Assembly (NCBI GenBank): GCA_027483505.1 | Contig: JAIXUP010000018.1 | Span: forward strand, 1 to 64,000 | Direction: 5' to 3' | Length of the DNA: 64,000 bases | From: Hyphomicrobiales bacterium | Lineage (GTDB): Bacteria > Pseudomonadota > Alphaproteobacteria > Rhizobiales > Beijerinckiaceae | Part shown: one piece after another, positions 1,313-25,700 of the stretch | Position numbering within the stretch: position 1 is the first letter of the stretch | Layout of the letters: each line of letters starts with the position of its first letter | Position numbers and translations under genes: made by a program | The notes under the pieces: model-generated | The model's database searches: none | The model's input: the letters and a program-made list of their open reading frames with translations, nothing else | Told to the model about the DNA's origin: nothing

Positions 1313-3313
1313 TCAATCTTCCGCGCCGGCGAATGACAAGGCCTTGCCGAGCTTCGCATCGGATTTCAACGTCCGGGCGCGCTCTGCATCATGCAGACGC
1401 GCCGCACGGGCCTGCGCAAGCATCGCAAGGCGGTTCGCCCGCCATCCTGCCAAGGCCGCGCGGGCGGAACGCCCCGCCAGCAGCCGTGCCAGAAGTCCGC
1501 AGTGGCGCCGCAACAGGTCATCATCGAAGGCGGCGATGACCTCGAAGCTTGCCGGGTCGCCCTGCCTGCCGCCGCGGCCGATGAGCTGTCGGTCGATGCG
1601 GGGCGATTCATGGAACTCGGTCGCGATGATGTGCAGGCCACCGCGCTCGCGCACCTGTCGCGATAGCCGGATGTCGGTACCGCGCCCGGCGATGTTGGTG
1701 GCGACCGTCACCCGACCGGCCTCGCCGGCAGCAGCGATGATCGCAGCCTCATGGGCATCCTGACGCGCGTTCAGCACGACATGCGCAATGCCGCGCGCCG
1801 CAAGCACGGCCGAAAGGGCTTCCGAGGCCTCCACAGCGCGCGTGCCGACGAGGACGGCCCGTCCGCAGGCCTGACCCGCTGCAACCGCGTCCGCCACGAG
1901 CGCCCATTTGGCCGCTGCATCGCGGACAATGCGTGTGCCGCACGAGATCCGGCGGCTGGGCCGGTTCAGCGGAATGCGGACAACCCTCAGATCATAAACG
2001 GTGCGGAGCTCTCCAGCGAGCTCGGCGACCGTGCCCGACATGCCTGACAGATGGCGGTAGCGCTGGAAAAAGCGCTGGTAAGTGATGCTCGCATGGGTGA
2101 CATTGGGTGCGGTGAGGGTGACGCCTTCCTTGGCTTCGATCAGCTGGTGCAGGCCCCTGCTCCACGACCGCCCGTCCGAAATCCGGCCGGTATGCTCGTC
2201 GACAATCTGGACCTTGTCGTCGCGGACAACGTAGTGCTCGTCGCGGTGGAACAGGTGAAGGGCCGCGAGCGCCTGCTCGACCAGTTCCTCCCGGGCCGCG
2301 CGCACCAGGAACACGCCGCTGCGCGCCAGCGCCGAGGCCTCGACAGCAGCACGGCCGGCGCGCGTCAGCACGACCTGTCTCTGGCGCGAGAGCAGGGTGT
2401 AGTCCCGGCCGGACTGCAGCGCGCCCGCCATTGCCAGCGCCGAAGAGAACTGCGGCCCGTCCGCCGCTTCGCCTTCGCCGGCGATGATCAGCGGCGTGCG
2501 GGCCTCATCAACGAGAACGCTGTCGGCCTCGTCGACAATGGCGAAGCCGAGCCCGCGCAACAGCAGGGACGGCCCTGACCGCTCCGGCATCAGCCGGTCT
2601 ACCGCCACATCGGATCGCGTGCGCCGTCGGCCGAGGGCAATCCGGTCGCGCAGATAGTCGAAGGCAACCTCCTTGTTGGAGGTATAGGTGATGTCGCAGG
2701 CATAGGCTCCGCGCCGTTCTTCGGGAGACTGGCCGTGCTTGCAGAACCCCGTCGTCAATCCGAAGGCCGCAAACACCGGCCTGAGATGCTCCGCGTCCCG
2801 CTCGGCGAGGTAGTCGTTGACCGTCACGACATGGACCGGAAGCCCCGCAAGAGCCGCCGCGACCGCAGCGAGTGAGGCGGTGAGGGTCTTGCCTTCGCCG
2901 GTCGCCATCTCTGCGAGCATGCCGCGCGCCAGGGCATAGCCGCCCATGATCTGCACCGCGAAATGACGTTGCCCGAGATGGCGGGCGGACGCCGCGCGGA
3001 CGAGTGCGAAGGTCTCCGCGAGCGGAGCGTCGGCGAGGCCGGAGCGCAGCAGTTCGCCCCGCAGAGCACCCGCGCGTGCGGCGATCCCAACGTCGTCAAG
3101 AGCTTCCGCAGCGCCGGCATGGGCGTCGACCATGGCGACAAAACGCCCGAGGCCACGCTCGCGGACCTGAAGCCGCGCGGACGCCGCTTCCAGCATCTTG
3201 TAGAGCGTCCGGTCGAAAAAGCCCGCCTTGCGCTCGGAACGCTCCGCATAGGCGGCCGAACGCGGATCGTGCACGAGACGCGAGGCGGCGATGGCGGATG
3301 CCCTGTGCAGCAT
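1313..3313 (-). CDS. SecA-like DEAD motor ATPase, short form without the C-terminal third
   Basis: The 666-residue protein is plainly related to the preprotein translocase motor SecA. The Q-motif/Walker A region reads MATGEGKT (about 136-143), Walker B VDEADSV (260-266) is followed by LVDEARTPLIIAG, and the preprotein-crosslinking region ends in VDEHTGRISDGRSWSRGLHQ. The second motor domain has TNIAGRGTDIRLS and the arginine finger IGRGGRQGDPAS. E. coli SecA has about 900 residues. Here only some 65 residues follow the motor, so most of the helical scaffold with its two-helix finger, the helical wing and the Cys-rich SecB/lipid-binding tail are missing. Housekeeping secA is expected elsewhere. 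The gene lies 2 bases after the M50-fusion gene, with a GAGG sequence before the ATG. I infer an accessory motor dedicated to the giant protein of this operon. Confidence 0.88.
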   Translation of the reverse strand: MLHRASAIAASRLVHDPRSAAYAERSERKAGFFDRTLYKMLEAASARLQVRERGLGRFVAMVDAHAGAAEALDDVGIAARAGALRGELLRSGLADAPLAETFALVRAASARHLGQRHFAVQIMGGYALARGMLAEMATGEGKTLTASLAAVAAALAGLPVHVVTVNDYLAERDAEHLRPVFAAFGLTTGFCKHGQSPEERRGAYACDITYTSNKEVAFDYLRDRIALGRRRTRSDVAVDRLMPERSGPSLLLRGLGFAIVDEADSVLVDEARTPLIIAGEGEAADGPQFSSALAMAGALQSGRDYTLLSRQRQVVLTRAGRAAVEASALARSGVFLVRAAREELVEQALAALHLFHRDEHYVVRDDKVQIVDEHTGRISDGRSWSRGLHQLIEAKEGVTLTAPNVTHASITYQRFFQRYRHLSGMSGTVAELAGELRTVYDLRVVRIPLNRPSRRISCGTRIVRDAAAKWALVADAVAAGQACGRAVLVGTRAVEASEALSAVLAARGIAHVVLNARQDAHEAAIIAAAGEAGRVTVATNIAGRGTDIRLSRQVRERGGLHIIATEFHESPRIDRQLIGRGGRQGDPASFEVIAAFDDDLLRRHCGLLARLLAGRSARAALAGWRANRLAMLAQARAARLHDAERARTLKSDAKLGKALSFAGAED

Positions 3314-3315
3314 CC

Positions 3316-5460
3316 TCAGGCCTCCAGCCGCGAGAGGAACAGCTGGCGAAGCCGCCGCCAGACCTGCTGGCCCAGAGGCTCGAAGCCATGGTCGAAGCGC
3401 ACATGCGCGCGCGCCCCGAAGGCGCTGGCGCCCGCCTCGGGCGGCAGGATGACGTCGAAGAGGAACTGCCCCTCGAGCGCACGCGGATTCTTCGGGTCAC
3501 GCGCGTCCACGGCGATGCGCCCGCCCCCGTCTATCGAGAGAGCGCGGCTCGGCAACTGGCCGCTCGCGGCGGGGACCTCCCGGCCCAGTTCGGCTGAGTA
3601 GGACCGGTCGGTCAGCCCGGCGAGCATCACGTCGACACCCTTCAGGCGGGTGCGGACCAGATCGATGTCGGCTTGCGGCACCGCAACGCGGATGGTGCGC
3701 GACTGCGGCGGCAGGAGGAAGCCGACGACGTCGCCGCGCTTGAGGAAACGCCCCGGCAAGTCCGCCTCATGGGGCAGCACAAGCCGTCCGGCTTCCTGGC
3801 TTTCGAGCGACAGGCGCGCAATCCGCATGTCCTGCCGCGCCAGCGTTTCCGCTTTCAGGCGAAGCTCGGCCCGGGTGACCTGCGACTGCACGCGGTCGCT
3901 GACCAGTTCGGCGTCCAGGCGAAGCGTCAACGCCTCGATCTGGCTGGCGGTCACGGCAGCCTCATGCACGAGGCCGGACTCTTCCCCGACCATGATCAGA
4001 TCGCCGGCCCGGACCATGGTCCCGCCAGGCGTCGCAATGCGCGCGACAAAGCCGTCTTCCCGGACCCTGAGGATCGCGCTTTCCGGCAGCCAGATAATGC
4101 CTTCCGTCAGCGTGACCAACGGCAGCGGCGCGAGCATGACAGCACCGACAATCGCGCCCGCGCCGCCGAACGTCACCGCCACGGCCCGGCCACGGTGGTT
4201 GGCCAGCTTCGGCGCGACCAGGACATGCCGCGCGATCTTGATGAGCGGCCAGACCAGCGTGGTGAACACCGTGACGATGGCCATGATGATGCCGACGATG
4301 AAGAAGGTGCCCGCCACGAACAGGGCGATGCCGAGCATCACCACGGTCCGGTAGAGCAATGATGCAGGCGCATAGGCGAGGAGCCAGCCCCGTTCACCGG
4401 GAGCAGTCACCGGCGGATCTTCCGTCACGCCGAACAGACGGCGCTCGGCCAGGCTGGCCCACCAGCGGGTCGCCCGCTGCGCGAGGTTCGGCATGTCGAG
4501 CAGATCGACGAGCATGTAGTAGCCGTCGAGCCGCATCAGCGGGTTGATATTGAAGACCACGGTCGAGATTCCGGCGATCAGCATCGTGTTGAAGGCGAGC
4601 GTCCGCACCAGTCCCGGCTCGACTGTCGTCCAGACGAACATCGCGAGAGCGGCGAGAAAGGTCTCCACCAGCATGCCCGCGGCCGCGACGAGCATGCGGT
4701 CCCAGCGCGAGCGGAACGCCGTGGACGACGTTGCATCGACATAGGGGACAGGCGCGAGCACCAGCAGCATCACGCCAAGCTCGCGCACCTCCCCGCCACG
4801 CAGCTTGCAGGCAAGTCCGTGGCCGAGTTCGTGCAGCAGCTTCAGAACGGGAAACAGCGCCGCCATGATGAGGATGTTGTCGAGCCCCATCGCATGATCG
4901 GCGATGTTGCCGGTCAGTTCAGGCCAGTGGAGCCCGGCCAGAACTCCGGCGAACACAACCGCCACGCACCACAGCAGCAGCCCGAAGAGACCGAAGAAGG
5001 GCCGAGCCCAAGGCGCCAACGCCGTCAGGAAGCGGTCGGGGTTGAGCAACGGAAAGCGCAACGCCATCGGGTTGGCGAAGCGCGACGTCAGCCGCTTCCG
5101 CGACTGGCTGCGATGACGCGAGAACAGCTCGATCGCGTCTGCATTGCTGTCGGACCGGATCAGGTCGGCGGCATGGAGCTGGGAGAGCAGATCAACCATG
5201 TCGGACTGGGACGGCGCCTCGTCCTTAAGGTTCTCGATCGCGGCGCGCCATATCTCGTCGACCGTGCGCAGGCCGTCCATCGAGCCGATGACCCGGTATG
5301 CGGTCGGCGTGAAGCGGTGGAACCTGCCGGTTGCGCTGTCCTGGATCACATACCAGGACTGGCCGCGGCTGCGGTGGCGGGTCACCGGCACATGGGCACG
5401 CAGTTGCGGCTTCAGATGCGCGACACGATGCCAGTGTTCCGAGTGGAAGCTTCTTGCCAT
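3316..5460 (-). CDS. PqqD-like / M50 site-2-protease-like / HlyD-like fusion membrane protein
   Basis: The protein has 714 residues in three parts. Residues about 30-105 resemble PqqD-type winged-helix domains (YVIQDSATGRFHRFTPTAY, then TVDEIW and LLSQLHAADLI), the fold that often binds leader peptides. Residues about 150-430 are a polytopic membrane region with the M50 zinc motif HELGH at 210-214 and the second-half motif NPLMRLDGYY (Asp312), so the metal ligands of an intramembrane protease are present. Residues about 440-714 form a periplasmic HlyD-like arm (VREDGFVARIATPGGTMVRAGD). Related PqqD/M50/HlyD fusions are usually annotated only as efflux adaptor or M50 family. It is 4 bases downstream of the GAF-HlyD gene and 2 bases upstream of the SecA-like gene. 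The likely role is recognition, and perhaps cleavage, of an exported client at the inner membrane. Catalytic activity is unproven. Confidence 0.85.
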   Translation of the reverse strand: MARSFHSEHWHRVAHLKPQLRAHVPVTRHRSRGQSWYVIQDSATGRFHRFTPTAYRVIGSMDGLRTVDEIWRAAIENLKDEAPSQSDMVDLLSQLHAADLIRSDSNADAIELFSRHRSQSRKRLTSRFANPMALRFPLLNPDRFLTALAPWARPFFGLFGLLLWCVAVVFAGVLAGLHWPELTGNIADHAMGLDNILIMAALFPVLKLLHELGHGLACKLRGGEVRELGVMLLVLAPVPYVDATSSTAFRSRWDRMLVAAAGMLVETFLAALAMFVWTTVEPGLVRTLAFNTMLIAGISTVVFNINPLMRLDGYYMLVDLLDMPNLAQRATRWWASLAERRLFGVTEDPPVTAPGERGWLLAYAPASLLYRTVVMLGIALFVAGTFFIVGIIMAIVTVFTTLVWPLIKIARHVLVAPKLANHRGRAVAVTFGGAGAIVGAVMLAPLPLVTLTEGIIWLPESAILRVREDGFVARIATPGGTMVRAGDLIMVGEESGLVHEAAVTASQIEALTLRLDAELVSDRVQSQVTRAELRLKAETLARQDMRIARLSLESQEAGRLVLPHEADLPGRFLKRGDVVGFLLPPQSRTIRVAVPQADIDLVRTRLKGVDVMLAGLTDRSYSAELGREVPAASGQLPSRALSIDGGGRIAVDARDPKNPRALEGQFLFDVILPPEAGASAFGARAHVRFDHGFEPLGQQVWRRLRQLFLSRLEA

Positions 5461-7753: not shown

Positions 7754-10700
7754 TCAGCCGAGCGTGATCCTGATTCCGGCATTCGGATCTGCCGCCGGCG
7801 CGGACCCCGCCACGAAGCTCTCCTTCCAGGCGCCGCCGGACGACACGCTCGCCATCGAGAAGCCTTCCAGCACGCGTCCAAGATCGACAGAAATCGGGCT
7901 GGAGCCCGCAGCCGCCGGCGGCGTTGACCCCGCCCCGAAGACCGTGACCGTGACGGTGGCGGTGGAAAGCGCTCCATGTTCATCCGAGACGGTGTAGGCG
8001 AAGCGATCGGTCCGCGACTGGCCCGGCGCGAGCGCCGAGAGGACCGCGCTTGAGCCGGCATCGTAGCGCACCGAACCGTCGGCGTTGAGCGTCAGGGTCG
8101 CGCCGAGCCGCGACGCCGCGTCCAGCCTCGATAAGGAGAGCACAGCGCCGGTGTCGATATCCCTGTCATTGGCCAGCACGTTGATCCGGCCGGCAGCGCC
8201 AGCGACCAGCGTGATGGCGTCGGCCACCGCCACCGGCCCGGCATTGCGCCCTTTCACCAGGACGCTGACAGTCGCGGTCGAGGTCAGGCCAAGCGCGTCC
8301 GTCACCGTGTAGCTGAATGTGTCCGCCAGGGTTTCGCCAAGCGCGAGGCCCTGAAGGACGGCGCGCGGATCGTAGGCGATCCGCCCGTCGGGCAAGACCA
8401 CGAGCGATGCGCCACGGACCGAAGTTCCGGCGACGGTCACGGACAGCGGTGCGATTTCATCCGTGTCCCTGTCATTGGCGAGGACGTTGATGTTCGCAAC
8501 CGCGTTGTCGAAGGCCGCCGCGCTGTCATTGGCCGCGACCGGCGCGTCATTGACGCCGGTCACGGTGACGAAGACCTGTCCCCGCGCGATCGCGCCCTGT
8601 TCATCGGCGATCACATAGGTGAAGCTGTCGACGAGCGTTTCGCCGCTGCGCAGCTTGATGAAGCCCGCCACGCCGGTGGGGTTGTAGCGGACCGATCCAT
8701 CCGCTTGCAGCGCTACCGCCGCGCCGAGCGCAGAGCGCGCCGCCACGCTCTGGATCGCGATGGGCGAGTTCTGGGCATCGGTGTCATTGGCGGCGGGATT
8801 GAACAGGATGGCCTGGTCCGCAGCTGTCTCGACACGGTCGACAACGGCCACCGGAGGCGTGTTGCGGCCCGTCACCCTGACCGTCACCGTGGCGGTCGCA
8901 GTCGTGCCATTGCTGGCGACAGAGTAGGTGAAGCTGTCGGAGACCACCTGCCCAACGGCCAGCCGCGACAGGAGCGCCGAGCCCGTCGGATCATAGGTGA
9001 TCTTGCCGTCGACCACCGCCAGCGACGCACCGAGCGAGGAGAGCGGGCCTGTCGCAAGCGTCGCGCCTTCGGGCGCCACATCGTTGCGCAGCACGTCGAT
9101 GGCCGCCGGGGCGAGGTTGCCGGAGGATGCACTGTCGTTGCGGAGCGCCAGCGGCTCGTTGATGCCGGCGACGTTGAGCACGACCCGGCCAAGCCGCAAA
9201 GCCCCGCCGGAATCCTTGTAGGTGAACAGGATCGCGTCGGCGGCTGTCTGGCCGACATTAAGCGCCTGAAGCCCGGCGGCACGGCGCGGATCGTAACGCA
9301 GGCTGCCGTTGGCGATGACCTGGACATCAGCGCCTTCGCTGCTCTTCGCATTCGCGCCGATCACGACCAGTCCGGCCGCCGGCCTGAAGGTAAGCAGCGT
9401 GTCCTCGTCCGTGGCCCGTACGGGAAAGTCGACGATCGCCGCTTCCTGCCGGCCGGAAACGATGACGCGGACGGAGCCTGTGGCCGTGCGGCCGGTTTCG
9501 TCTGTGACGGTGTAGGCGAAGCTGTCGGTCCTGGTCTGGCCGGAGAACAGCCCGGCCAGAGCCACCGAGCTGGTCGGATCATAGACAAGCTGCCCCGCCA
9601 CGAGCCGGATCGTCCCGCCGAGGGAGCTCGCCGCATCGAAGCTCTGCAGCGTCAGGACGGCGCCCTGGTCCGGATCGCGTGCGAGCGCCAGGGCATCAAC
9701 CGCGATCGTCATGTCGGCATCCGTGGCAACAGTCAGCGAGCCGGCGACCGGCCTGTCATCGGCGCCGGTGACGGTGACGATGACCTGCCCCAGCACCAGT
9801 TTGCCGTCGCCGTCGCGGGCCGTGAAGGTGACCTTGTCGACGAGGGCGCTGCCGGGCGCAGAGGTCAGCGCTTGGAGCGTCGCCGATCGGGTCGGATCAT
9901 AGCGCAACCCTTCCGGCAGGATCGACACCAGAGCGTTCCTGGAACTGGCGGAGATCACCGTCAGCCCGTCCACCGGCAGCGTGAAGGCCACATCCTCGCT
10001 GGTTTGCGCGACAAGCTCGACCGTCGTATCATTGCGCCCGTTGACGCGCACGGTGACGGTGGCTGTCGCAGCTGCCCCTCCTCCGTCGGTGATCGCGTAG
10101 GTGAAGCTGTCGGTGGCCACCTCGCCAAAATTCAGGGCCTGCAAGGCGCTGGCCTGGCGTGGATCGTAGACCACACGGCCGCCGGCATCGACGGAGAGGG
10201 CCGCGCCGAGAGCGGACAGGGGCGACGTCAGCCCGACCACCAGCAGATTGCGCGCTGTCTCGGCATCGCTGTCATTGCGGCGGACATCGATGACGACCGT
10301 GGCATCCTCGCTGACAGCCGCTTCATCGGCGACGGCCACGGGAGGCCGATTGACGATCACGGGACGGATGGTGATCGCGGCTAAAGCCTGTGTGAGGTTG
10401 CCGGCGCTGTCGCGGGCGGCATAGAGGAAGCTGTCAGAGCCGCTGTAGCCGGGGGTGGGTCTGTAGACAAAACCCCCATCAGTGCCGAGCGTGAGCGTGC
10501 CGTGCAACGGTCCGTTCACGAGCGTCGCCGTCAGCGCGCCTGCGCCGGGGTCATTGTCGTTGGCGAGGACGCCCTGAGCGGCCGAAACCGTGAGCGTGCC
10601 TCCGGCATCGACGGCATAGGAATCCGCCGCCGTCACTGGCGGCAGGTCGCGCACGCCGAAGCTCGCCGCAAGCGTCGCGCCGCTGACGACCGTGGCGCTG

Positions 10701-13700
10701 AACGCGCCGCTCGTCGCCACCGATCCAGCAGGCACGACCTGCCGGATGGTGATGCTGCCGGCGCCGAGGCCGGCGAAGCTCCAGGCGCCGCTCAAGCCCG
10801 TGGCCGTCGAGGTTTCGCCGCTATCCAGAACGCCATCATTGTCGAGATCGATGAAGACCGTGCGGCCAGCGATCCCGGTCTCGCCGGCATCTTGCACGCC
10901 GTCCGCGTCGCGGTCGTCAAAGACCTGGCCGGAGACGCGGCCGAGGCCAAAGGACCCGAAGCTTGCGGTGAGGTTGGAGCCGCTGACGATGGCCGCGCTG
11001 AAGGCGCTGCTGGTTGCCACAGATCCGGCGGGAACCACCTGCCTGACAGTCACCGCGCCCGGTCCGAGATCGACGAAGCTGAAGGCCCCGCCCGCATCCG
11101 TGACTGCGGTGGCTTCACCGGCATCGAGAACGCCATTGTTGTCGCGATCGACGAAGACCGTCCGGCCGCCAAGCCCGCTTTCGCCGGCGTCGAGCACCCC
11201 GTCACCATCAAGGTCGTCGAAGACCTGGCCAGTGACACGGCCAAGGTTGAAGTTGCCGAAGTCGACGTTGGCCAGATTGTCGCCAACCCCGATGGTCAGC
11301 GCATGCCCGTCCAGCGCGCGCGGGACGGCATCGGAGCCGCCGCCCGTGTCGCCGCCGCCAGTCCCGCCGGAACCTGAGCCCGGCGTCATGGCCAGGATCG
11401 CTTCGGCGAGCGCCTTGACGTTGACGCGCCGGTAGCTGTCGCCGGTGTTGTCGACGTTGTCGTTCTCGTCGTCGCCGTCGATGATCACGATGCCGGTCTG
11501 GCGCGAGAGCGCCGCGAACTCGGCCCCGCTCAGACGGCGGCCCAGATGGTCGAGCGCGATGTCCTGCGCCAGCGCCGCCACGCCGGCGAGGTAGGCCGAG
11601 GCCTGGCTGGTGCCCTGCATGGTCACCGTGCCGCCTGTGGCGTTGGCGCCGGTGAGGCGCGCGCCGGGGGCGAAGATGTCGGTCAGGCCGCCGCGCTGCG
11701 AGAAGCTCGCAATGGCGTCGCCCGCCGTCGTCAGATCCGCCGCGCCGTTGGAGAAGCGCCACGGCCCGCCATAGTCGGCGCTCCAGACCGCGCCGACCGC
11801 GATGACATTGGGGTCCGCGGCCGGGTAGCTGACGCCGGGCTGGGCGTCGAATGTATAGAAGGCGTTGCCGGACGCGGCGGTGATGATGATGCCTTGCGCC
11901 GCCAGCGCAGCGAGTTCGTCGCCGAGGCCATAGCGGCTGGCGCTGGTCAGCCAGTTGCCGCCATCGCCCAGCGAGAGGTTGACCACGCCGACCCCGAAAT
12001 CGCCGGCGTGGCTGACGACCCATTGCAGCGCCTTCTCGACGTAAAGGAAGTAGCCGGCGCCATTATCCTGGAAAACCTTGAGCGCGATGATGTCCGCCGC
12101 CGGCGCGACGCCGGCATAGGTTCCGTCGCTGCTGGCGATGATGCTGGCGACGTTCGAGCCGTGGCCGGTCCGGTCCGAGGCGTCGGCGTCATTGTCGGCG
12201 AAGTCCCACTGGAAGACGATGCGGTCGCTGACGCCGTTACCGTCGCGGTCCGGCCCGAAGAAGGCGCTGTCGCGATCGATGCCGGTGTCGATCGTGACCA
12301 CGCGGATGCCGGCTCCTTCTGTTCCGGCGAACCGGGGATCGGCGCGATAGGCGTCAAGTCCGGTCAGCAGGCTTGCGCGAATGGAATCACCCGCCGCAAG
12401 CGGCGTGGTTCCGGCCACCATCATGTCGGGCGAGACGAGTTGAACGGCGGAAGCGGCCGTGTCGAGCAGACCCGGCGCGGTCGCCGATCCCGGCGCGGGA
12501 TAGGTCTGGCGCCAGCCCGGCTTGAGGACTTCGGCGACGACATAGGCGCCGGGCCGGACATCCTCGAACACATAGCCGCCAGCCGCGTCCGTGACCGTCA
12601 CGCGTTCGCCGGCATCGAGCAGGCCATCCAGGTCCTGGTCGAGGAACACGGTCCAGCCCGGCAGCAGCGCCTCGCCCGCTTCGCGCGCGCCATTGCCGTT
12701 GACGTCCTCGAACTTGACGCCGGCGATGCGCGCCAGGGCGATGCTGCCGAAATTCCGGTTGTCAGCAACCAATCCGCTGGTGACGGTCACCACGAGCCGA
12801 TCCGGTCCGGAAGCGGCGACATGGGCTGGAACGACCTGGCGCAGCACGACCACCCCCGCCGACAGGCCGGCGAAGCTGTAGCTGCCATCCGATCCTGTGA
12901 CCGCCGTACGCTCGCCGTCATCGAGCACGCCGTCATCGTCGCTGTCCAGGAAGATCGTGCGGCCGGCAAGACCGGTCTCCCCGGCATCGCGCAGTCCGTC
13001 CTGATCAAGGTCGCTGAAGGCGACACCCGAGATCGTGGCGGGCGTGAACAGGCCGAAGGCCGGGGCCAGGGTGTCGGCAGACGGCGTGACCGTCACCACG
13101 TTGAAGGCGGGCGTTGTGGCCACGTCGCCGGCTGGGATGACAAAGCCGATCCTGTAGGCCCCCGGCGCCAGCGCAGCGAAGCCGTACAGGCCTGCCGCGT
13201 CGGTGACAGCGCTTGCCTCGCCGGCGTCGAAGAGGCCGTCTGCATCGGCATCGAGGAACACGGTCAGGCCGGAGCGCGGCCCTTCGCCGGCATCGAGCAG
13301 GCCGTCGCCGTCGCTGTCGTTGAAGACGCGGCCTGAGATCGAACCCGGGGCGAGGCCACCGATGCCGATGGTGGTGTCCGGAGTTGCCGGAATCGCCTCC
13401 TGATTGCCCGCATGATCCCGCGCGACGGCGTAGAAGGCATAGGTGCTGCCCGCCTCGCCGACAAACAGGCCGGAGGTTTCCGTGGTGTCGAGCCGGAAGA
13501 GGGACAACTCGCCGCCATCGCGGGAGAAGTAGATCGAGTAGCTGGCGATCGCGGACCCGTTCACATCGTCGAGGCCGCCCCACTGCAGCTCGATGGTCGT
13601 TGCATCGCTGGTCGCGGGCAGCGGCAGCATCGTCGCATCGGGCTTCACCGCATCGAGCGTGTTGAAGATGGCCGGTGTGTCGATCGGTTCCTCGGTGTCG

Positions 13701-16700
13701 AAGATGATCGTGGCCATCGCGTCGATCCGTGTGCCGGTCGGAACGCCCGCCTTCGGCCGGATCGTGTAGGTGACAAAGCCTTCGCCGAGGCCGTCGCCGT
13801 CATTGGGCGGCAGGAAGCCGGCGCGCGCATCCGAGGTCGGCTCACCGGTTGCCGGGTCGATGGTCGTGAACAGCCAGGTCAGCGTGTTGGCGGTCACGTC
13901 CGGCAGCACGAGCAACTCGACGACATAGCCCTTGGTCGCCGTCAGGTCGATTCGGCCGAGGAAATAGGCGCGGTCGGCATTCTGGGCGAAGACCTCGCCG
14001 CTCCAGCCGAAATCATCGACGCGGAAGGTCCGGATGTCGAGATCGGGATCGAGCTTCTGGACGATCGAGACCGTCTGCGCCGGAGCCGTGGCGCTGGCGC
14101 GGTTCTCGAAGCGGATCATGTAGGACAGAGGATTCTCAGCCGTGATCCAGTTCTCCTCGCCGGTCCCTTTCGGCCCGATGATGTCATTGGGATCGATGGA
14201 GCCGATGACGGCTGGTGCGAAGATGGTCTTGGGCTTTTCTTTTTCCTCGCAGATTTCGTTCGGGTCTTTCTCGGGGGGGCCGAAGTAGTTGTCGGCCCGC
14301 GCGTCGGTCGGAACAAGCGCACCGACCGCCTCCAGGACCGAGCCCGATCCGCTCAGTTCGGCAGCGAGCGCCGCAAGATCCGGCGCGACGCGGTTCGCCA
14401 GCAGCGAGGGCGCGAAGGCCTGCTCCTGTGACCAGGCGGACTCTCCGAGGCGCACCCAGCGCACTTCCATTTCCTTTAGATCGTCTCCCGGACGGCGATC
14501 TTCCGACCAGAAGATCGCGGCCGAGTTGCCGACCTTGCCGATCGAGATCGCCAGCGCGCCGTCGCCCTCGCCGACCTTCGTCGCGGCGCCCCAGGTGCCA
14601 GTGACGCTATCCCAAGCGGCAACGTAAATCTCGACCATGTCGGAGTCCATGATCTCGCGGCGCCATGCCCCGAGCAGGACATCGCCGACGCGGCCAAGCT
14701 CCATGCCGTTTTCCTGCCCGGACAGGTCAGCAACCGTGACTGGAACGGACCAGAGGCCGTTCTCGAACACGCTCGATTTCAGTTCTGCCGTCCGCTCATA
14801 GGCGGTCAAGGCCGTGATGGTCTCCTCCGACGCAATCCCTTCCTCAAGTACGGGCACCAAGGCATTGCCTCGGTCGGACCAGAGGAGGACCAGGCGGCCG
14901 GTCGCATCGAACGCGATGCTCGCGCCGCCGATGGCGCGATCGGTGCCAGGGATCGCCTCGGGCGTGCTCCATGCGCCTGCGACATAGTGCGCAAACTTGA
15001 GGAACCGCTGTGTGGGGTCACTCGCATCAGCGGACTGCCAGACCGCATAAATCGTCCCATCGGGGGCGGTCGCGAGTTCAGGCTTCCCGTCATAGGCCAG
15101 GTTACCGGCGACATTTGTCTCGATGGCTTGCGCCCCGCCACCTGAATAATCGCCGCTAGACCCTGCGAGTACGCTGAGATCGCGCCTTATCGTCATCGTC
15201 GGAACATTCTCCGCAAGCGAAGTCAGTTCGGACGACGAGGCGCTTGAGACTCCAAAAAAGGTGGTCGAAGCGACCGGGATTTCCTTAAAGTAGCCAAGCA
15301 CAGGGGCGGAAAGGGACAATTTGGCCGTGCCCGCCGCCCCCTGGAACTCGAACGTCGGTAGAATTTGCCACGTGATAGCAAGGTCGCCGCTCAGGGTCGC
15401 GGACACGGCGGCATTGTCAAGACTGTCGCCGCCAGCGAATACTGAGACAGAGGGTTTGACACGCAGCTGTGCCTTGGTGATGCCCTCGTCTGGCAATCGC
15501 AGCAGTACGGGTGGGGCGTCTGCACTCCATGACATAGAGCCGGTGAGACTGACGCTGATGCTGAGGCCGAACAGAACGCCTCCAAGCTTAAGCGTTTTCT
15601 TCGCTTCCTCTAGCGCGGTCGCGATTGCGAAACCCTGCGGGGTGTTGCGTGGAACGAGGTTTTCAAGGGGAATTTTGACCTCGACGCCCCCGCCAAGGCT
15701 CAATTCGAGTTTGCTGGATGCGAGTTCCCAGGTGGGTGTTTCGCAGCCCTTCGCCACCCATCCAGCACTGTAGGTGCCTGAGCCTTCGACGAAGAACTGT
15801 GTTTCAGTGCCAGATGCAAAGCTACCATCCGAGCCAGGTACTATGGCCGGGGCACCGCCCGCATCCTCCTTTCCGAACGTAATCTTGATGCTGCCCCCGG
15901 CCGACGCATTGATCGCCGTCTTGGTTTCGTCATACGAGCCATTGACGTTGACCGCGAGACCGCCACTGACCCCGAGGAAGGGCAGCTTCGGAACCTTGAA
16001 CTTCTTCTCGTACTTGACCTTACCATCGGCTCCTTGGAGACCATCCGGAATGAGAACGCCGGATTCGACCATTTTGTTGATCTGGCGCTCGATCTCCATT
16101 TCCACCTGACGGGCGGCCGCCAGGCTCTCGGCGCTAAAGGAGAGAACCGAGCCGTCAACATCGATAACCCGGAAATAGAGATCGCCGTCGTCGTTGATGG
16201 TGCCATCGGTGGAACGATAGGCCACGATTACGCGACCATCCGGATCAATGGCGATCGACGCCAGGCTGTCGTCGACTGCGTTGTCAACGAGGCGCTCAAA
16301 TCGCGACCAGGACATGCCATTCGCGGTCTTCACACCGATCGAATAGTTGAAGTCCCGCGTGTTGGCTTCAGCCGAAGCCGTGCGCCAAACGAGGATAATG
16401 CCCGGCGTCGATCCGTCGATCAAATTGCTTGCCGCCGAAACCGTAAACTCCTGGTCTACGGCGTCGGCCAGCATGACAGCATCCACCCAGGACGCGCCAT
16501 CAAAGCGGGCATGCCACAATTTCCCATCTTCAAGCCAAAAGATGTGATCTTCGCCATCTGGGTCGGTCATGAGGATGGGGCGGGTAACCTGCGTCAGGTC
16601 GTTCTGTGCAATTTCGTCGGTGGCCCGAAGAGTCAGACCTATGACGTCGTCAGTGTCGCCGACGATAAGTGTGGTGCGGGTCGTATCCGCTATTCCATCG

Positions 16701-19700
16701 CTGTTGGCGTCGAATACAAGGCGCAGCGAGGGATCAAGGCCGAAGAAGTATTCGCCGGGCTCAAGTCCAGCAATTGTGAAGGCCCCGTTGGCGTCCGTCA
16801 CACCGATGCCACCGAGAACCTGATCGTTGTGGGCGACTCGGTAGGCGAAGATCGTCGTACCCGCCAACGGTGCATTCGTCTGGCTGTCGAGCAGCACGCC
16901 AGAGGCGGACACAGTCACCCGGAAATCCGGGCTCTTCACATAAAGCCGCTCGAAGATGAGGTGAATGTCGCGCAGGGCCTCGCCCGGTTCTGCGACGTCC
17001 AGCGCGATGCGGTTGATGAAGGCTGCAAGATCGCCCCATTCATCGCCGATCTCGGGCTGGATCCGGTTCCAGAACGGCAGCCATTGCGCATCGGCCAGCG
17101 CATTGGGCTTCAGCGCATCGCGGATGGCGCCCCAATCCGTGATGGGTTCGCCAGAGTCCTCGCCAACCGTGTCGAATTCCATGCGGGCGCCGGCATAGAA
17201 CACGAACGACATGGCGCTTTCACCGCCCGGCCGCAGCACGTCCGAGGGCCCTTCCGTGCTCGAGCCGAGCGCCAGGAACAAACCTTCCCGCATACGCTGC
17301 GGATCGTATCCGAATGTCCCGCCTGTCGGCTTCACGCGGATCAACGGTGCGGCCGTGTCCGCATCGCCGTTGTTCGTCCACAGATAGGTGACGCTGTTGA
17401 TCGTCCTGCCGCGGACTGCGGAGGGGCCGTTCACGGCGTCGGCAATGTTGGAGCCGACACCCTCCGTGATGGTCAGTCCGTCGGTCAGCGCGACGGCAGC
17501 CCCGCTTGGGCTGAGCGCTGCAAGGTCGTACCGGCCGGCGGGCGTGCCGAACAGGTCGAAGGTCGCATAGGCGCGGCTGGCGTTCACGATGACGACGCGG
17601 CTGGCGTCAAGCGCCTCGCCGAGGTCGTTGAGCAGCGAAAAGCGCGTGCCGGGCTCGAAGCGGGCACCCTCGATCCGGATCGTGGCGTCATTGGCATTGC
17701 CCACCGTGTTCCGCGCGATGCTGCGGATCGAGAAGGGGATGCTTTCGGCGCTGAGCGTGAAAGCGCTGGCGGCCGCGGCATCGGTGTTGACCACGGCGAT
17801 GTAATAGACGCCGGCCCGGCTGGTCGGAATGATCAACTCCTGGTCAGCCTCGAACGGCGTGGCGGCGCTGAAGTCGCCCAAACCGCGTTCCGGCACCGCG
17901 CCGTAGCTGACATAGATCTCGTTGCCCACGGCGCCGGCAGCGCCGTCGAGGAACAGGCGCAGGGTCTCGCCGGCATTGGCGACGAGCCGGTAGTAGGAGA
18001 TGCCGTTGGCCGGAATCGATCCGGCGACCGAGGCGCCGACAGCCAGCGTGGGCACATCGACCGAGGCGGCGTCAAGCGAGCCGCCGATGTTGTTGGCCTC
18101 GTTGGCCTCGTCGAGATTGTTGCGGATGTCGGTGCGGACGATGACCTGGTAACTGCCGGGAAGGACACCGGGAATCTGCGCCACAAGCGTCTCGCTGTAG
18201 CTTGCCCCGGCGGCCACCGGCCCCGTGTGCAGCACGCGCCCGACGAGCCGGTCGCCGACATCCCATACGCCATCGCCCGACAGGTAGACCGCGTCATACC
18301 ATGAGCCCAGCGCGGTCCCGGCGCTCGCATTGCTGATGGTGTATCTGATGGAGGCCTCGGCACCGAGCGTCAAGGTTTCGGGGATGACGACGCTGCCGAC
18401 GATGAGATCTGTCGGGGTCGGCAGAACGACGAGGGTCGAGAGCCCGTCATAGCCCGCATTGTCGGTTTCGCTCGATTCGGTGCTGACCAAATTGGTCGAG
18501 TCGGTCGAGACGAAGAAATAGTACGGACCGGCATAGCCTTTAGGAATCGTCGCGACGAATTCCTGCTGGTAGCTTTCGCCCGCAGCCAGCGTGCGCTGCT
18601 GCGTCACATAGCCCAGGAAGACATCCGAGGCGCGCTGCAGGTTCTGGTCGGCCGACAGAAAGAGGCTGTCATACCAGGCGCCCGTGAACGTGTCGCCGGT
18701 GTTGGTCACGGTGTAGCGCAGCGTCACCGTCTGGCCGCTGACGGCGGTGTCCGGCGCATCGACGATGGACATGACCAGATTGGGAACGGGCGGCGCGTAT
18801 CCGCTGACGGCGAGCTGGTTCGACGCCGTGGCGTTGTTGCTCTCGAAGGGCGTTTCGGTGACGGAGTTGTCCCGGTCGGTGAAGACGATGATGCGGTAAC
18901 TGCCGGTCGGCAGGGTCGCGGGCAGCACGAAGTTGCCGGAAGCGGTGTAGCTCGCGCCGGGCGCGAGCGTGTTGGTGCGGCGCACGGCGCCGATATACGC
19001 ATCGCCGATGTCGTAGGCGCCGTCAGCGGAGATGTAGACCCGGTCGATCCAGGTGGTGGCGTTGGCATCGGCGTTTCCGTCGTTGATGACGGTCCAGGAC
19101 ACCGCGACAGGCTGCCCGGCGATGGCGGCGAGCGGAGCGTTGACGCTTGTCACCCTCAGATCGGCGATGCTGCGCGTGACGGTGATCGGCGCGCTGCCGG
19201 TGTTGTTGGCTTCGTCGCTCTCATCCACGCGCCGGTTGCGATTGCTGTCCGTGTCGGTCTGCACCAGGATGAAGTAGTCGCCATCCGCCTCGTAGGGCAG
19301 CGTCACAAAGGCGCTTTGCGCGATGCTGGCTCCGGCCGCGAGCGTGGCCGTCGTCTCCACATCGCGCAGGACGATATCGTCGCCGTCGCCGTAGGTCTGG
19401 TTGCGCGACAGGATGATCCGGTTGTTCCAGAGGCCGTTGTCGGTTGGTCCTGCGCCGGTGTTGGTGATTGTCCAGTTCACGGCGATCTGCCGGCCGGCAA
19501 TGCCATTCTCCGGCACGCTCACCAGCGGCACGGTCAGGTCGGCCGGTCGGTCGTCGATGCGCAGCGCGCTGGCGACGATGTTGTTGGCATTGTCGAATTC
19601 GAACACCTCATTGGCCGAGTCGGACGCAATGATCAGGTGGAAATCGCCGCTGATGCCCGTGGGCAGGCGGACCGTGCGGCCCGTGGCCGCCGCCTGCCCT

Positions 19701-22700
19701 GGCTGGACCGGCCCAGGTTGCTGGAGATAGCTGTCGAGCAGGATGTCGTCGGGGCCCAGAACCCCGTCTTCAGAGAGGTAGATCGCGTTGAACCAGCTCG
19801 ATTGCGGCGTCGCGGTCGACCCGTCATTCCTGACGCTGAAGGCCAGATTGATGGCTTGGCCTGCAAGCGCGGACGAAGGCGCGCCGGTGACGACCGTCAC
19901 CAGATCCGGCGGCGGGCGATGGACAATGGTGGTCGGCGTCGCGTCAAAGCCGGTGTTGTCGCCTTCGTTCGCACCTTCGAAGACCTCCCCGGACGCATCC
20001 GTCCGGACGAAGACGTAAAACCGACCCGCCTGGCCGATCGGCGGAAGCACGCTGGTGGACAGGGTGTAGCTCGCTCCGTTGTCGAGCGCGCCAGTGTGCC
20101 GCACCGTGGACAGCAAGGTGTCTCCGGCATCAAGCGTGGTGTCCGCGGAGATGAAAATCCGATCGTCCCACGCGCTTTCGAAGGTACGGGCGCCGCCGAC
20201 GTTGGTGATGGTGACGCTTACCGCCATCGGGTCACCGGTCACCGCGGTCAGGGGCGCGGACACGCTGGTCACCTGCAGGTTCGGCGGCGGCGTGAGTGCG
20301 ACGTTGACGGGCGCCAGGCGCTGATTGTCCGTCTCGCCACCGAACTCGAAGATCCGGTTTTCGCGGTCGGCGACGACGATGACCTTCCAGACGCCTTCAA
20401 TGCCGCGCGGCAGGATGGCGGTCAGGCGGTTCTCATAGCTCGCCCCGGGCGCGAGGAAGCTGGGATTCTCCGCAATTCCCAGAAGGACATCGCCGGCGTT
20501 CACCACATCGTCGGTGGAAAGGTAGACGTAATCGCGCCAGACCGGCACGGTGGTCGGGCCGGTTCCCGCATTGGTGACGCGCCAGACGATGTCGATCGGC
20601 TGGCTTGAAGCGGCATCAGCCGGCACGGTCAGCGCGCTGACCTGCAGGTTGGGAAAATCCTTGAGCACGATGCTCGTCGGGCTGGCCGCAGCACGGACGT
20701 TGTTCGCCTCGTTGGGATACTCGTAGTATTCCTCGGTCGCATCGGTCTTGATGATGACATAGCGGCTGCCGGACAGCGTTTCCGGCAAGGTGAAGTCGAC
20801 CGTCTGCCGGACGGACTGGCCCACGCCCAGCGTTCCCTCGAAGCGGACATCCGCACCGAGCTGCAGGTCCGAGCCGTCGAGCACGGCATCTGTGGACAGA
20901 TAGACACGGTCGGTCCAGTTGGCGACGGCCTCGGTGCCGGTGTTCAGGATCGTCCAGCTGATGGGCACAAGCTGGCCGGAAATGGCCTCGATCGGGCTGG
21001 TCAGCGCCGAAACCTGCAGATCAGGCAAGGTTCGGATCGTGACCGAAAGCGCATCGGAGCCCTGGTTGTTGGTTTCGTTGGCCTCACTTTCGTAGACCGC
21101 GCTCTGGCCGAACTGGTTCTGCTGGTCCGCGACGACGATGATCGAGTAGCCGCCCGCCAGAACCGACGGATCGAGCGGCAGCGGGATATCGAGCGTTCGC
21201 GTATAGCTCTCGCCCGCAGCCAGCGGCCGCAGCGACGGCCCGCTCCACAGCAGACGGTCCCGGTTGTCGATGGTGGCGTTGCCCAGCGAAAGATAGACGA
21301 GGTCCGTCCAGACGGCGGTCGTCGGCCCGTTCCCGAGATTGGAGACGGTGTAGCTGAAGGCGATGTTGCGTCCGAATTCGGCTGCTGGCGGCGCGGCCAC
21401 GGTCGTGACCCGCAGGTCCGGCAAAGGCGGGTCCGCGATGGTCACGTCGATGTTCGGACCATCGTTGTTGTCGTCGGCCTGATACTCGAAGATCTGCCGG
21501 AACGCGTCGGTCTGGACCTGGATACCCCATTGGCCGGGATCGTAGCTGTGGTTGAGCGGCAGGGTGACGCTGACCGTGCGCGTGTAGCTCTGGCCAGGCG
21601 CGAGGGTTACGCCGGTAACCGGCTCGTTGCGCAAACTGAGCGTGCCATAACCCTGGGGCCGTACGGTCAGGGAGATCTGGTCGGTCCAGCTCCCGGTCAC
21701 GGTGCCGGAGCCGTGATTGGTGACCGTGTAGGTCACATCGACGGTGTTGCCGAATTCCGGCGTGATGTCGGAGACGCTGGTCGCGTCGACTCTCAGGTCG
21801 AGCAGCGGCGGCAGGGCGAGGTTGATCGGGAGCGGAACGGTATTGTCGTCTTCCGCCTGATGCTCGTAGATGGCGTTGGTGCGGTCGGTAACCACGAAGA
21901 TGGTGTAGGTGCGGTTGGGGTCCGAAGCGCCATTGAACGGCAAGGTGATCGTCGCCGAGCGGTCAATGCCCTGGCCCGGCGCAAGCGGATTCGTCGACCG
22001 GTCGACGATCGACGTGTGCAGAAGCCAGTCGTCGGTGAAAAAGCCGGTGTCGAGGTAATTGTCAGCAGAGAACCAGACCTGATCGGTCCAGGAACCGGTC
22101 GCATCGCCCGTCCCGGCGTTGAAATCGGTCCAGTTGATCGTCACCGTCTGGCCGAAGAACGCCGCGCCCGGCACCGAGATCGCCCGAACTTCAAGATCGG
22201 GCGAGGGCGGCAGCGTCAGCGAGACCGGCGTCGTGGCGCGCGTATTGTTGTTGTAGCTGGACTCGCCGACGCTCTGTGACGTCCCTTGATTGTTGTTGGT
22301 TGTGGCTAGAACGTAATAGCTTCCGGGCTGGTAGCTTGTACTGACGTAGGGCAGCGTCGCGTTGACGGTTCTGGTATAGGATTCGCCGATTCCCAGCGGC
22401 GTCGCGGAAGTGAACTGGGTGATGAGCGTGGACTGGATCGTTTGATCGAAGGAGTTCGTTGCCGGATCATATCCCTTGAGCGGGTCGGTCGAGAGGAAGA
22501 GATAATCGAGCCACTGTCCGAAGACCGGCGCATTGCCGACGTTCTGCACGGTATAGGTGACGGAAATCACGTTCCCGAATACGGCGCTGGCCACTGTCGA
22601 GACGCCGGTGACGACAAGGTCAGGCGAGACGACGACGATTGTGTCGCTCATTGCGGCGGTCATGGCGTTGCCAGTGAGGTCGGTGATGGCTGGGCCAAAG

Positions 22701-25700
22701 GTCACGCCATAGCTGCCGGCCACGAAGTTGTTGAAAAGCCGGAATGTCAGGACGTTGCCGGCAACTGTGACGGCAAAGGGCGTGATGACCGCGCCGTTCG
22801 GATCGACGATACGCAGATCGCCAGCCGAAACGCTCGCTGCGTCAACGGCCTCGCTCATGGTGACCGTCACGACGTTCAGCGGGGCGGTCAGTCCATCCGG
22901 CGTGATCGACACCACTGTCGGCGGTGTCCTGTCGACCCGGAAAGCGGAGGCGAAGGCCGTCACGGCCGTGCCGCCGGCATCGTCAAGCCGTCCGGCGGCC
23001 AGCGCGATGGCATAGGAGCCCTCGGCGTCGGCCAGACCAGCAATGTCGAAGACGAGCGTGCGCCCGTCGACAATCGTGACAGCATGCGCAGCGACACCGT
23101 TGATGGTGAGGTCGCCGGCCTCAACGGACGGCAAGTAGACATTGTCGGACAGCGTCAGCCGCAATTCCGAAGGCGCGTTGCGCAGGCTGGCTCCGTTTGC
23201 GACCGACGCGGAGGTCACCGTGAAGGGCAGCGCGGCGACAGGCGCGTTCGTCGTCAGCACATAATCCCCGCGTCCCGCCTCGGACGACACCCGCACCTGG
23301 TAGCGGCCGGCGACGGCCGCCGTGAACTCGACCTGCGCGTCAAGAGCGCCCGATGGCGAACTGCTGTTGCTGGCGACGACCTGCCCATTCGGCCCTGTCA
23401 CCGTCAGCGCCGGATTGAGGGCGGTCAGCGGCTCCCCGGGAGCTGTGAACGGCGTTTGCGTGGTGAATGACACGGTCTGGCCTGCGGCCAGTTCGACAAC
23501 ATAGCTGTCGCCGGGCCGCGCCACCCACGCAACCGCCTGTTCAAGCAGCTTGTCGGGCTGTCCGCTCCGAAGCACCGGATCACCGACCGAGGCATAGGCG
23601 ATTCCAGTGTAGACGGTCCGGCCCGAGCCGCGCGTGTCGATGACCAGCATCGGCCGGGTGCCGCTGAAATCGCTTGCGAGGAGCGTCGCGCCGGGATCGA
23701 CGCCGCCATTCGGCACTTCGCCGCTGCCAAAGTAGAACGGGATCACACCTTGGGTGATGGGATGGGCCGTCGCATTGGGGTAGAGCGAGAACCCGTTGAG
23801 GAAGGTTGCTGAACCTGAGGTGTTGACCGGAACGATGTCATCAATGGCCTGAAGCGCCGATCCGGTGTCGGTTCCTGCCACGTTCACGCTGTAGCCGGTT
23901 GCGATCAAGCCGCCGCCACCAAGGACGTATTGCTTCAGGGCCGTAGCCATCGAATCGAGCTGATTGCCGGCCGCGCTGTTGCCGATGACCACGACGTCAT
24001 AGGCCAGGAGTTCGTCGAGCGTGTCGAGGTCACTGCCATCCACCGCCACGGCATTGAAGCTGAAGACCGACGAGTCGTTCAGCTGGTTCCGCAGCGCCAC
24101 CGCATTGGCGTCGAGCCCGTGGACTGCGACCCGCAGGGCCGGACCGGCCGCGCCGACGGAGCCCGTGCGCCCGAACAGGGTGCCGGCGGTGACAGGCGCG
24201 TTTTCCGCGCCGCCAACGGCAAGCTGTGCATCGCGCGTGACGGCAAGCGCATAGCGCAGGGTTGCGGCATCAGCCGGAGCGCCGGGGCGCGTTTCGATCC
24301 TGATCTGGTAGGTACCCGCCGCGCGGGCGACAAATCCGTCGATGCGCTGCAGCCCGTCGGGCCCCGCCGCGCTGGTCGCGACCTCCGTGCCGCTGTCGTC
24401 CATCAGCGTCGCGCGGAGGCGTCCCACATCGCCGTCAATTCCGCCAAGGCCAAGGTCGATGCGCTGCCCGGCTTCCAGGTCGAGCGTGAAGCGGTCGACG
24501 TCGCCGCTGCCAGCGAGGTCGCCCACGCCGCCGAGGCGGGTGGCGCTCGCGCCGAAGGTCGTGGCCGATGGCTCGAGGTTGACCGCACCGGCAGCGGTGC
24601 CGTCGTCGACGGCGCCGCCCTCCGCCGCGATGACGGCATTGAGCGCCAGCGTCAGGGCATAGCGGCCGGTGCCAGCGATGTTGGTCACGCGGACGGAATA
24701 GACGCCGGCCGCCAGCGCGCCCGGAGGCAGCGTCAGGGCATCGCCGGGATTGGCTGCGGCCGCGGATGCGACAACCGAACCGCCTGAATCGACAATCGCG
24801 ACTTCGGCGGCCAGCTGACCCTTCGGGCTGAAGCCGACCGACAGGCGAGCCCCTGCCTCGAGGGTGATCTCGAACGTGTCGATGTCGCCGCGCGGCAGAC
24901 TGCGTTCCAGCGTGGTGGCGTAAACCTGCCCGCCCGGAGGTGACAGGGCCGGAAGCGCGGCGATTTCCGTCGTCAGGTTGCGGACGGAGAAGGGCAGAAA
25001 CCAGAAGCCGTCCTCGGTGCCGTCCCCGGTCGGGACCTGATCGTTTGGAAAGCCGTCAAGGCGGTTGCCGGCGGGATCCCTGATGTCGCCATGGAGATAG
25101 AACTGGTAGTCAGCCTCTTCGAGCGCGGCATCCGTCGTCGCCGTCAGCGTCCGCGTGCCGGGATTGTAGGTCAGCGTCGAGATCGCCTCGAAAGTCTGCG
25201 TGTCCAGATTGAAGAGCGACGCGTCATAGACGGAATCGATCAGACCGGCGTTCATCTCCTCGCTGAAGCCGACGGCGATCGTGAACGGGTCGGCGTCAAG
25301 AACCTCGTTGGGCGCAATCGAGCTGGTGATGACGCGAGGCGGGGTGGAATCCAGCGTGAAAGGGATAAAGCGTCCGCCAAACACGCGCCCGTCTACGGAT
25401 TTCAGAATGCCGCCGGCGATCTCGATCGTGTGCTCGCCGTCTGCCGGAGCGACGGGCAGCGTGAAGACCAGTGTGTCGCCATCCACGACACGCACCGCGC
25501 TTGCCGCCTCGCCATCCAACAGGAGGACGGATGCCGACACCGTCTGGAGATCGAGAGGGGCCGAGAAATCGACCCTGAATTCGGTGTCCACCTGACGGAT
25601 GAGCGGGCCCCACCCCACATAGGCCGGCACGACCTCCGAAGCGCTGACCTGAACCGGGATCGGCGTCGAGGCGACCAACGGGGGCGTTCCCGTCGCACCG

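Follow-up and report, generated by a model that had tools for sequence, protein, structure and literature searches.

In the window (the whole 64,000-nucleotide stretch of contig JAIXUP010000018.1 analyzed here), a cluster of six genes probably matures and exports giant proteins that carry a short LEPR-XLL tag near their start: the PqqD-like domain of a three-part protein, P0001, would read the tag, its M50 core would cut the chain and the cluster would export it, and we infer binding, cutting and transport as well as the sequence of these steps. The residues immediately after the tag motif track the protease, since tag type agrees with protease clade in 31 of 32 neighboring pairs and the match recurs within two single genomes. 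That such a three-part protein lies beside tagged giants in many distantly related bacteria suggests a dedicated, so far undescribed route for maturing and exporting them. Giants of 5,000-15,000 codons must leave the cell, and no route for them was found in the literature searched; the pairing described here offers one in which both tag and protease can be named and in which a swap of specificity is built in.

The gene cluster and the architecture of P0001

The set runs from the LEPR-XLL giant through the DUF3467 protein, the GAF-HlyD protein, P0001 in fourth place and the SecA-like ATPase to the HlyD-type adaptor, all on the minus strand (Table 1). Because the intergenic gaps measure only 2 to 27 bases and all genes follow one another on one strand, we infer that the six genes form one operon; a KduI/IolB-type gene precedes the giant.

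Table 1. Positions in the window of the cluster genes and of the segments discussed in the text
Feature	Positions	Strand	Basis
PqqD-M50-HlyD protein (P0001), 714 aa, ATG start	3316..5460	minus	ORF, Pfam, AlphaFold2 model, domains of relatives
PqqD/RRE-like domain, residues 10-98 of P0001	5167..5433	minus	Pfam PqqD, profile match to 3g2b, model
Membrane region, residues 158-443 of P0001, seven helices in model	4132..4989	minus	Model, hydropathy, loop charges
HELGH, residues 210-214 of P0001	4819..4833	minus	ORF; HExxH conserved in 80/80 relatives
NPLMRLDG, residues 306-313 of P0001, third zinc ligand region	4522..4545	minus	ORF; motif conserved in 80/80
HlyD/adaptor arm, residues 445-695 of P0001	3376..4128	minus	Pfam, model, profile and structure matches
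LEPR-XLL giant, 6783 aa, first gene of the set	7754..28105	minus	NCBIfam and domain scan
Tag of the giant, residues 36-50	27956..28000	minus	NF012209 match at residues 37-50; conserved positions
DUF3467 protein, at most 120 aa	7364..7726	minus	Pfam, 60.6 bits
GAF-HlyD protein (P0003), 626 aa	5465..7345	minus	Pfam
Short SecA-like ATPase (P0002), 666 aa, without wing/scaffold domain	1313..3313	minus	Pfam, NCBIfam, profile, model
HlyD/periplasmic adaptor (P0004), 296 aa	419..1309	minus	RND_mfp, 121.9 bits (cut-off 94.9)

An earlier, sequence-only reading had described P0001 as a PqqD-like domain, an M50 protease with intact zinc ligands and an HlyD arm in one polypeptide, and both the open reading frame and this three-part architecture were confirmed. 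In the single-protein Pfam search, M50 (27.3 bits, cut-off 27.2), PqqD at residues 37-101 (25.9, cut-off 23.4) and HlyD_3 (23.3, cut-off 22.2) all passed their cut-offs, all narrowly; the architecture is firm because aligned relatives carry the same domains (M50 in 40, HlyD_3 in 39 and PqqD in 27 of 46, at E <= 0.01). The family profile matched the PqqD protein of known structure 3g2b at residues 18-102 (E 2.7e-4) and the MacA-MexA chimera 4dk1 at residues 451-634 (E 1.3e-7). In the AlphaFold2 model (mean pLDDT 86.4, pTM 0.70), residues 26-97 form strands and three helices, followed by membrane helices and an arm with lipoyl, helical-hairpin and barrel parts. The start of the protein thus combines a PF05402 score with the strand-plus-three-helix fold of PqqD/RRE domains, the core carries the HExxH and distant NPxxxxD motifs of Peptidase M50 in membrane helices 193-220 and 284-304, and the arm has the three domains of an HlyD/MFP adaptor, its residues 446-693 aligning with MacA (9qgy_G) at a VIA-align Z of 14.8 (rmsd 4.4, 220 aligned). 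Among the best 50 PDB matches listed by each of Foldseek and VIA-align, all fall in the HlyD arm, a result that does not count against the other two parts, M50 and PqqD.

Relatives were collected by a contig scan with the three copies of the window's own genome, using two short N-terminal patterns (113 found, 80 kept). The HELGH numbering given in the sequence-only reading was exact, NPLMRLDG lies at 306-313, and HExxH and NxNPxxx[FLY]D are intact in 80/80 relatives of clade 1, the protease clade to which P0001 belongs. The clade-2 rows, five of which are genes fetched twice, keep HExxH in 26/26 and fit the strict NP/SP..D pattern in 24/26. This conservation of the zinc motifs points to P0001 as a working enzyme. 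The protease copy on contig C10 of genome G000 has HEAWH.

The model places seven helices in the membrane (158-177, 193-220, 252-279, 284-304, 356-385, 387-415 and 417-443), and the predicted cytoplasmic loops carry 3, 5, 6 and 3 basic residues, versus none in the four predicted periplasmic loops. A plain hydropathy scan gave six stretches only, one of which (378-396) spans the fifth and sixth model helices; the odd helix count is therefore taken from the model and from the need for the HlyD arm to lie outside. With that count, the model and the alternating basic loops support the earlier placement of the PqqD domain in the cytoplasm and of the HlyD arm in the periplasm. In SpoIVFB-like M50 enzymes the zinc site lies near the inner face of the membrane, and by likeness to them the site of P0001 is probably similarly placed.

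The tag and its pairing with two protease clades

The giant contains CARDB, Ig-like, PPC, SdrD_B, cadherin-like and subtilase domains, and LEPRVLL occupies its residues 41-47. Since its start passes the cut-off of the NCBIfam LEPR-XLL model NF012209 (18.0 bits at residues 37-50, cut-off 17; 23.8 bits in the genome search), the motif belongs to an already named domain. The tag spans approximately 16 residues, a basic stretch followed by hydrophobic-x-hydrophobic-E-x-LEPRxLL-SAD. The start of the giant is without a clear Sec-type hydrophobic core, because its best 12-residue mean hydropathy within the first 100 residues is 1.43, as against 2.53 at the start of P0004; across 82 tags the median of the best 12-residue value is 1.38, and four exceed 2.0. 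A common C-terminal signal of the giants (hydrophobic-x-W-polar) was considered and rejected, as it occurred in 9/29 C-termini versus 8.6 expected from shuffles. Many LEPR-XLL frames measure 5,000-15,000 codons, but a tagged protein need not be giant (1579 aa at locus L091). The longest open frame had 19427 codons (G419:C115); others had 15406 (G343:C1) and 15371 (G291:C1).

The window's own genome contains three LEPR giants (open frames of 10018, 6798 and 5753 codons) and exactly three protease copies, paired side by side. Two further weak LEPR matches there, a 191-codon frame (16.5 bits, 17.1 with neighbors, which narrowly passes the cut-off) and a 35-codon frame (12.6 bits), come from a search at E <= 1 in which 7/14 control genomes also match. 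At the third cluster (L011 9854-12766, G000:C10), an IS240-type transposase follows the SecA-like gene, at the usual place of the HlyD gene.

In genomes chosen for holding the close family (L093's genome left out), LEPR-XLL scored above cut-off in 43/50 and 24/29, together 67/79, leaving 12/79 without a match, and the same searches gave 0/14 in control genomes. The class sample (289 genomes, including the window's own) held LEPR in 6 genomes (E <= 0.01) and the family in 13 (E <= 1e-10), and both together only in G000 and G050; the other 4/6 LEPR-positive genomes (G056, G182, G201, G280) have weak matches of 18-21.5 bits, still above the cut-off, in frames no longer than 631 codons. The phylum sample (398 genomes) held LEPR in 41 (E <= 0.001) and the family in 90 (E <= 1e-30), and the wider family was found in 40/41 LEPR-positive versus 50/357 LEPR-negative genomes (Fisher 1.3e-28), the sole LEPR-positive genome without it being G558, which is 86% complete. 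An initial pairing count in this sample considered no more than two scored copies in any genome (three in G000) and gives a minimum; the adjacency figures below supersede it. Among genomes with copies above 400 bits, a line that, like the 600-bit line and the tag types below, was chosen after the first results, 7/39 had no LEPR match. In the phylum of G364 (216 genomes; Planctomycetales record L106), LEPR was present in 12 and the family (E <= 1e-20) in 49, the latter in 11/12 LEPR-positive and 38/204 LEPR-negative genomes. Copies above 600 bits occurred there in 10/12 LEPR-positive genomes versus 4/204 others (Fisher 1.3e-12) and, after removal of the known family holders G364 and G366, in 8/10 LEPR-positive genomes (Fisher 2.3e-10); among the LEPR-positive genomes, G897 lacks any copy and the single copy of G884 scores 421 bits. 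These Fisher values, and that of the tag-clade match below, overstate independence, because the genomes are related and some recur (G299/G616, G359/G439).

Profile scores of the protease family fall into two bands, and a 72-row tree made with a quick method separates two clades by one branch (SH-aLRT 100). Clade 1, that of the window, is accompanied by the SecA-like gene and by LEPRxLL-SAD tags; clade 2, without the SecA-like gene and often with TolC, is accompanied by LEPRxLL-D(A/G)A. Clade-2 neighborhoods contained the SecA-like gene in 0/16, DUF3467 in 0/16 and an OEP/TolC-type gene in 11/16, four of these 11 matches being Pfam-confirmed and the same four having helped to build the OEP profile; that profile matched in 6/80 clade-1 neighborhoods, five of the six matches being weak. 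In 82 tags of genomes with clade-1 copies, taken from the best-scoring LEPR matches retained as loci, LEPRxLL is followed by S in 74 cases and by A or N in 8, and in clade-2-only genomes the tag continues DAA, DGA or DAT.

Of the 56 LEPR matches in the 398-genome sample, 35 lie on the same contig as a protease copy and 32 within 20 kb of it. The 32 close pairs comprise 23 of clade 1 with S/A/N, 8 of clade 2 with D, 1 of clade 1 with D (G616, tag DGTS, the sole discordant pair) and 0 of clade 2 with S/A/N (Fisher 8.6e-7). The pairing used 73 family-match rows; of the other 51 rows, one lies on a contig with a LEPR match (G421:C10, 76 bits, beside a full copy), and none alters a pair. Three tags share a contig with a copy at more than 20 kb: in G453, which also has clade 1, an S-type tag and a clade-2 copy are 22 kb apart; in G421, a D-type tag and a clade-2 copy, 36 kb; and in G382, an S-type tag and a clade-1 copy, 610 kb. 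Counted by genome, the 12 with clade 1 only hold 15 S/A/N tags and 0 D, the 8 with clade 2 only hold 0 S/A/N and 11 D, and the 20 with both hold 25 S/A/N and 4 D; the tag of G558, which has neither clade, reads YGD and was assigned to neither type. G372 and G647 hold both tags, each adjoining its own clade, a pattern that common ancestry of entire genomes leaves unexplained. D-type tags may be undercounted, since the LEPR profile finds mostly SAD-type tags; a scan of 19 clade-2 stretches, many of them showing no protein start, found further D-type starts in L213, L217, L234, L235, L236 and L237. Taken together, the pairing in the own genome and the wider samples and the tag-clade match lend comparative support to the guess in the sequence-only reading that the LEPR segment could be a client tag.

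Proposed mechanism and alternatives

We propose that the cytoplasmic PqqD/RRE-like domain of P0001 would bind the tag of the client much as RREs bind RiPP leaders, that the M50 site, close to the cytoplasmic face of the membrane, would cut at or beside LL-(S/A)AD, that the short SecA-like ATPase would drive the chain, and that the HlyD-type arms of P0001, the GAF-HlyD protein and the HlyD protein would hand it on in the direction of an outer membrane channel of the TolC type, for which clade 2 often has a gene alongside. The partner of the SecA-like ATPase might be SecYEG, the longer SecA on contig C69 or the M50 protein itself. M50 proteases usually need a transmembrane helix in the substrate, and the tag is without one, which is a point against cleavage by the M50 core. 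The best hint that the protease may read or cut just after the tag core is that the residues there, where one might expect a cut, change with the protease. According to the accessible text of PMC12710340, the motifs bound by RREs are short and hydrophobic, being W/Y/LxxP/L/I for one group, and the F/L-E-x-L-E-P of the tag may loosely fit that motif.

Since all cluster genes vary together, the reader of the tag could be another member (the SecA-like, GAF-HlyD or HlyD protein), with the PqqD domain and M50 core serving, for example, to clear a cut signal or stalled chains; the preprotein cross-linking domain of SecA, kept in 34/34 SecA-like members scanned, would suit such a reader. Against this reading, clade 2 still pairs with LEPR tags while its neighborhoods have the SecA-like gene in 0/16, and leaders are known to be read by RREs that are fused to proteases or encoded alongside them, in the accessible part of PMC10885120. 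We regard a reader other than the PqqD domain as quite unlikely. Highly improbable, in our judgment, is that only the neighborhood is shared and that a RiPP-like peptide maturation and export unit travels with the giants for ecological reasons. The best NCBIfam match of P0001, to a daptide protease, is in keeping with such a unit, but domain scans of the window's cluster genes found no RiPP-type enzyme, and chance travel would leave the match between tag residue and protease clade unexplained.

It is also conceivable, albeit unlikely, that the giant takes a different route, through general Sec or a type I exporter with genes elsewhere, and that the cluster serves to anchor, sense or release it at the envelope, the M50 core then acting in surveillance or release in the manner of a site-2 protease. 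Regulatory roles are common among M50 proteases, other giant adhesins have N-terminal retention modules, and the GAF domain of P0003 suggests sensing; moreover, the OEP profile found no TolC-type outer membrane factor in the window, and none of the cluster genes looks like a dedicated inner membrane channel, two absences that also weigh against export by the cluster. A release device, however, would not need the SecA-like gene found in 71/80 clade-1 clusters, the hydropathy of the tag relative to that of P0004 speaks against general Sec, and the OEP/TolC-type genes of the clade-2 neighborhoods argue against this reading as a whole. Export of the tagged proteins by the cluster itself is the reading that we prefer. 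We advance more tentatively, at slightly under even confidence, that the cluster represents a new Gram-negative secretion system for very large proteins, in which an RRE-like domain would read LEPRxLL and a conduit-fused metalloprotease would cut, a scaffold-less SecA in clade 1 or another drive in clade 2 would power passage through HlyD arms and TolC, and SAD versus DAA/DGA would define two specificities. If true, RRE-type recognition would extend from small peptides to giant proteins, and a SecA motor would operate without wing and scaffold.

Relation to known systems and variation among the clusters

The nearest known enzymes are the RiPP leader M50 proteases (EpeP/YydH, LiaK and the daptide M50 protease), which share with P0001 the PqqD-like region and M50 core; its best NCBIfam match, the daptide M50 protease NF041824, covers both at residues 21-405. 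P0001 differs from them in falling below the curated cut-offs, in its HlyD arm and in clients that would be large proteins rather than short peptides. An ordinary daptide or epipeptide protease was rejected on these scores (169.7 bits versus a cut-off of 300 for NF041824, 40.9 versus 225 for YydH/LiaK NF058609). M50 enzymes serve RiPP pathways, and EpeP is thought both to cut and to export, as far as the accessible text of PMC10885120 goes.

We regard the cluster as a variation on export across the envelope coupled to the processing of a leader. One machine joins leader recognition, cutting and the HlyD/TolC route in the PCAT-type ABC exporters. Unlike type I secretion with a leader peptidase, the window's cluster has a membrane metalloprotease in place of a cysteine peptidase, and clade 1 has a SecA-like ATPase; a type I exporter within the cluster was rejected, because domain scans of the window's cluster genes found no ABC domain. 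The accessory Sec (SecA2) pathway likewise places a second SecA-type ATPase beside large proteins, but the SecA-like protein of the window reaches no further than the beginning of the scaffold helix and scores below the SecA2 cut-offs. The tag is a member of NCBIfam LEPR-XLL, a domain named by sequence and mentioned in passing only in the accessible portions of PMC10868602 and PMC9611531. In the literature searched, from which subscription papers were mostly absent, we found neither a function or partner of LEPR-XLL nor a description of a PqqD-M50-HlyD/LEPR cluster; the parts are known families, and the combination and its client seem undescribed. Methylobacterium is reported to possess a giant surface protein of about 15,800 residues (in M. 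extorquens genome reports), and the LEPR frame of 15371 codons in a Methylorubrum aminovorans record (L032, G291) may be its counterpart.

P0002 lies below the cut-offs of all SecA and SecA2 models with which it was compared (TIGR00963, 548.5 versus 800 bits; TIGR03714, 430.9 versus 930; TIGR04221, 436.1 versus 725; TIGR04397, 498.7 versus 1085). Its family keeps the nucleotide domains as well as the cross-linking domain, and the SecA_SW wing/scaffold was found in 1/34 members (at E <= 0.01; that one at E 0.0021). The family profile aligned to residues 15-607 of SecA chain 3jv2_A, stopping at the start of the scaffold helix, and the P0002 model terminates in a single helix (624-661). Because the ATPase ends at the first scaffold helix, it is without the two-helix finger credited in SecA with pushing chains into SecY. 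The scaffold-less protein is kept across clusters and may be a minimal SecA motor; the own genome also encodes the longer SecA-type frame on C69, of 1047 codons.

By best label, the 80 clade-1 loci, all from genomes other than the window's own, contain the GAF-HlyD gene in 78, the SecA-like gene in 71, the HlyD gene in 56 and the DUF3467 gene in 20. Both loci without GAF-HlyD (L036, L061) start at a contig end, and of the nine without the SecA-like gene, six end at a contig end (L033, L048, L078, L096, L101, L108) and L046, L051 and L067 have none in view. Clustering also placed a SapC-type gene in 7/80 neighborhoods (L055, L062, L070, L071, L076, L087, L088; Pfam check on that of L062). HDOD/response-regulator/GGDEF-type genes form a loose cluster near the set in 13/80 loci (for example, L039 16544-18547), one member having been checked by Pfam and some of the 13 loci being close relatives. 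Related large proteins lie beside the set in 13/80 loci (for example, L030, L079 and L084), and that of L030 has GDxG-type (RTX-like) repeats.
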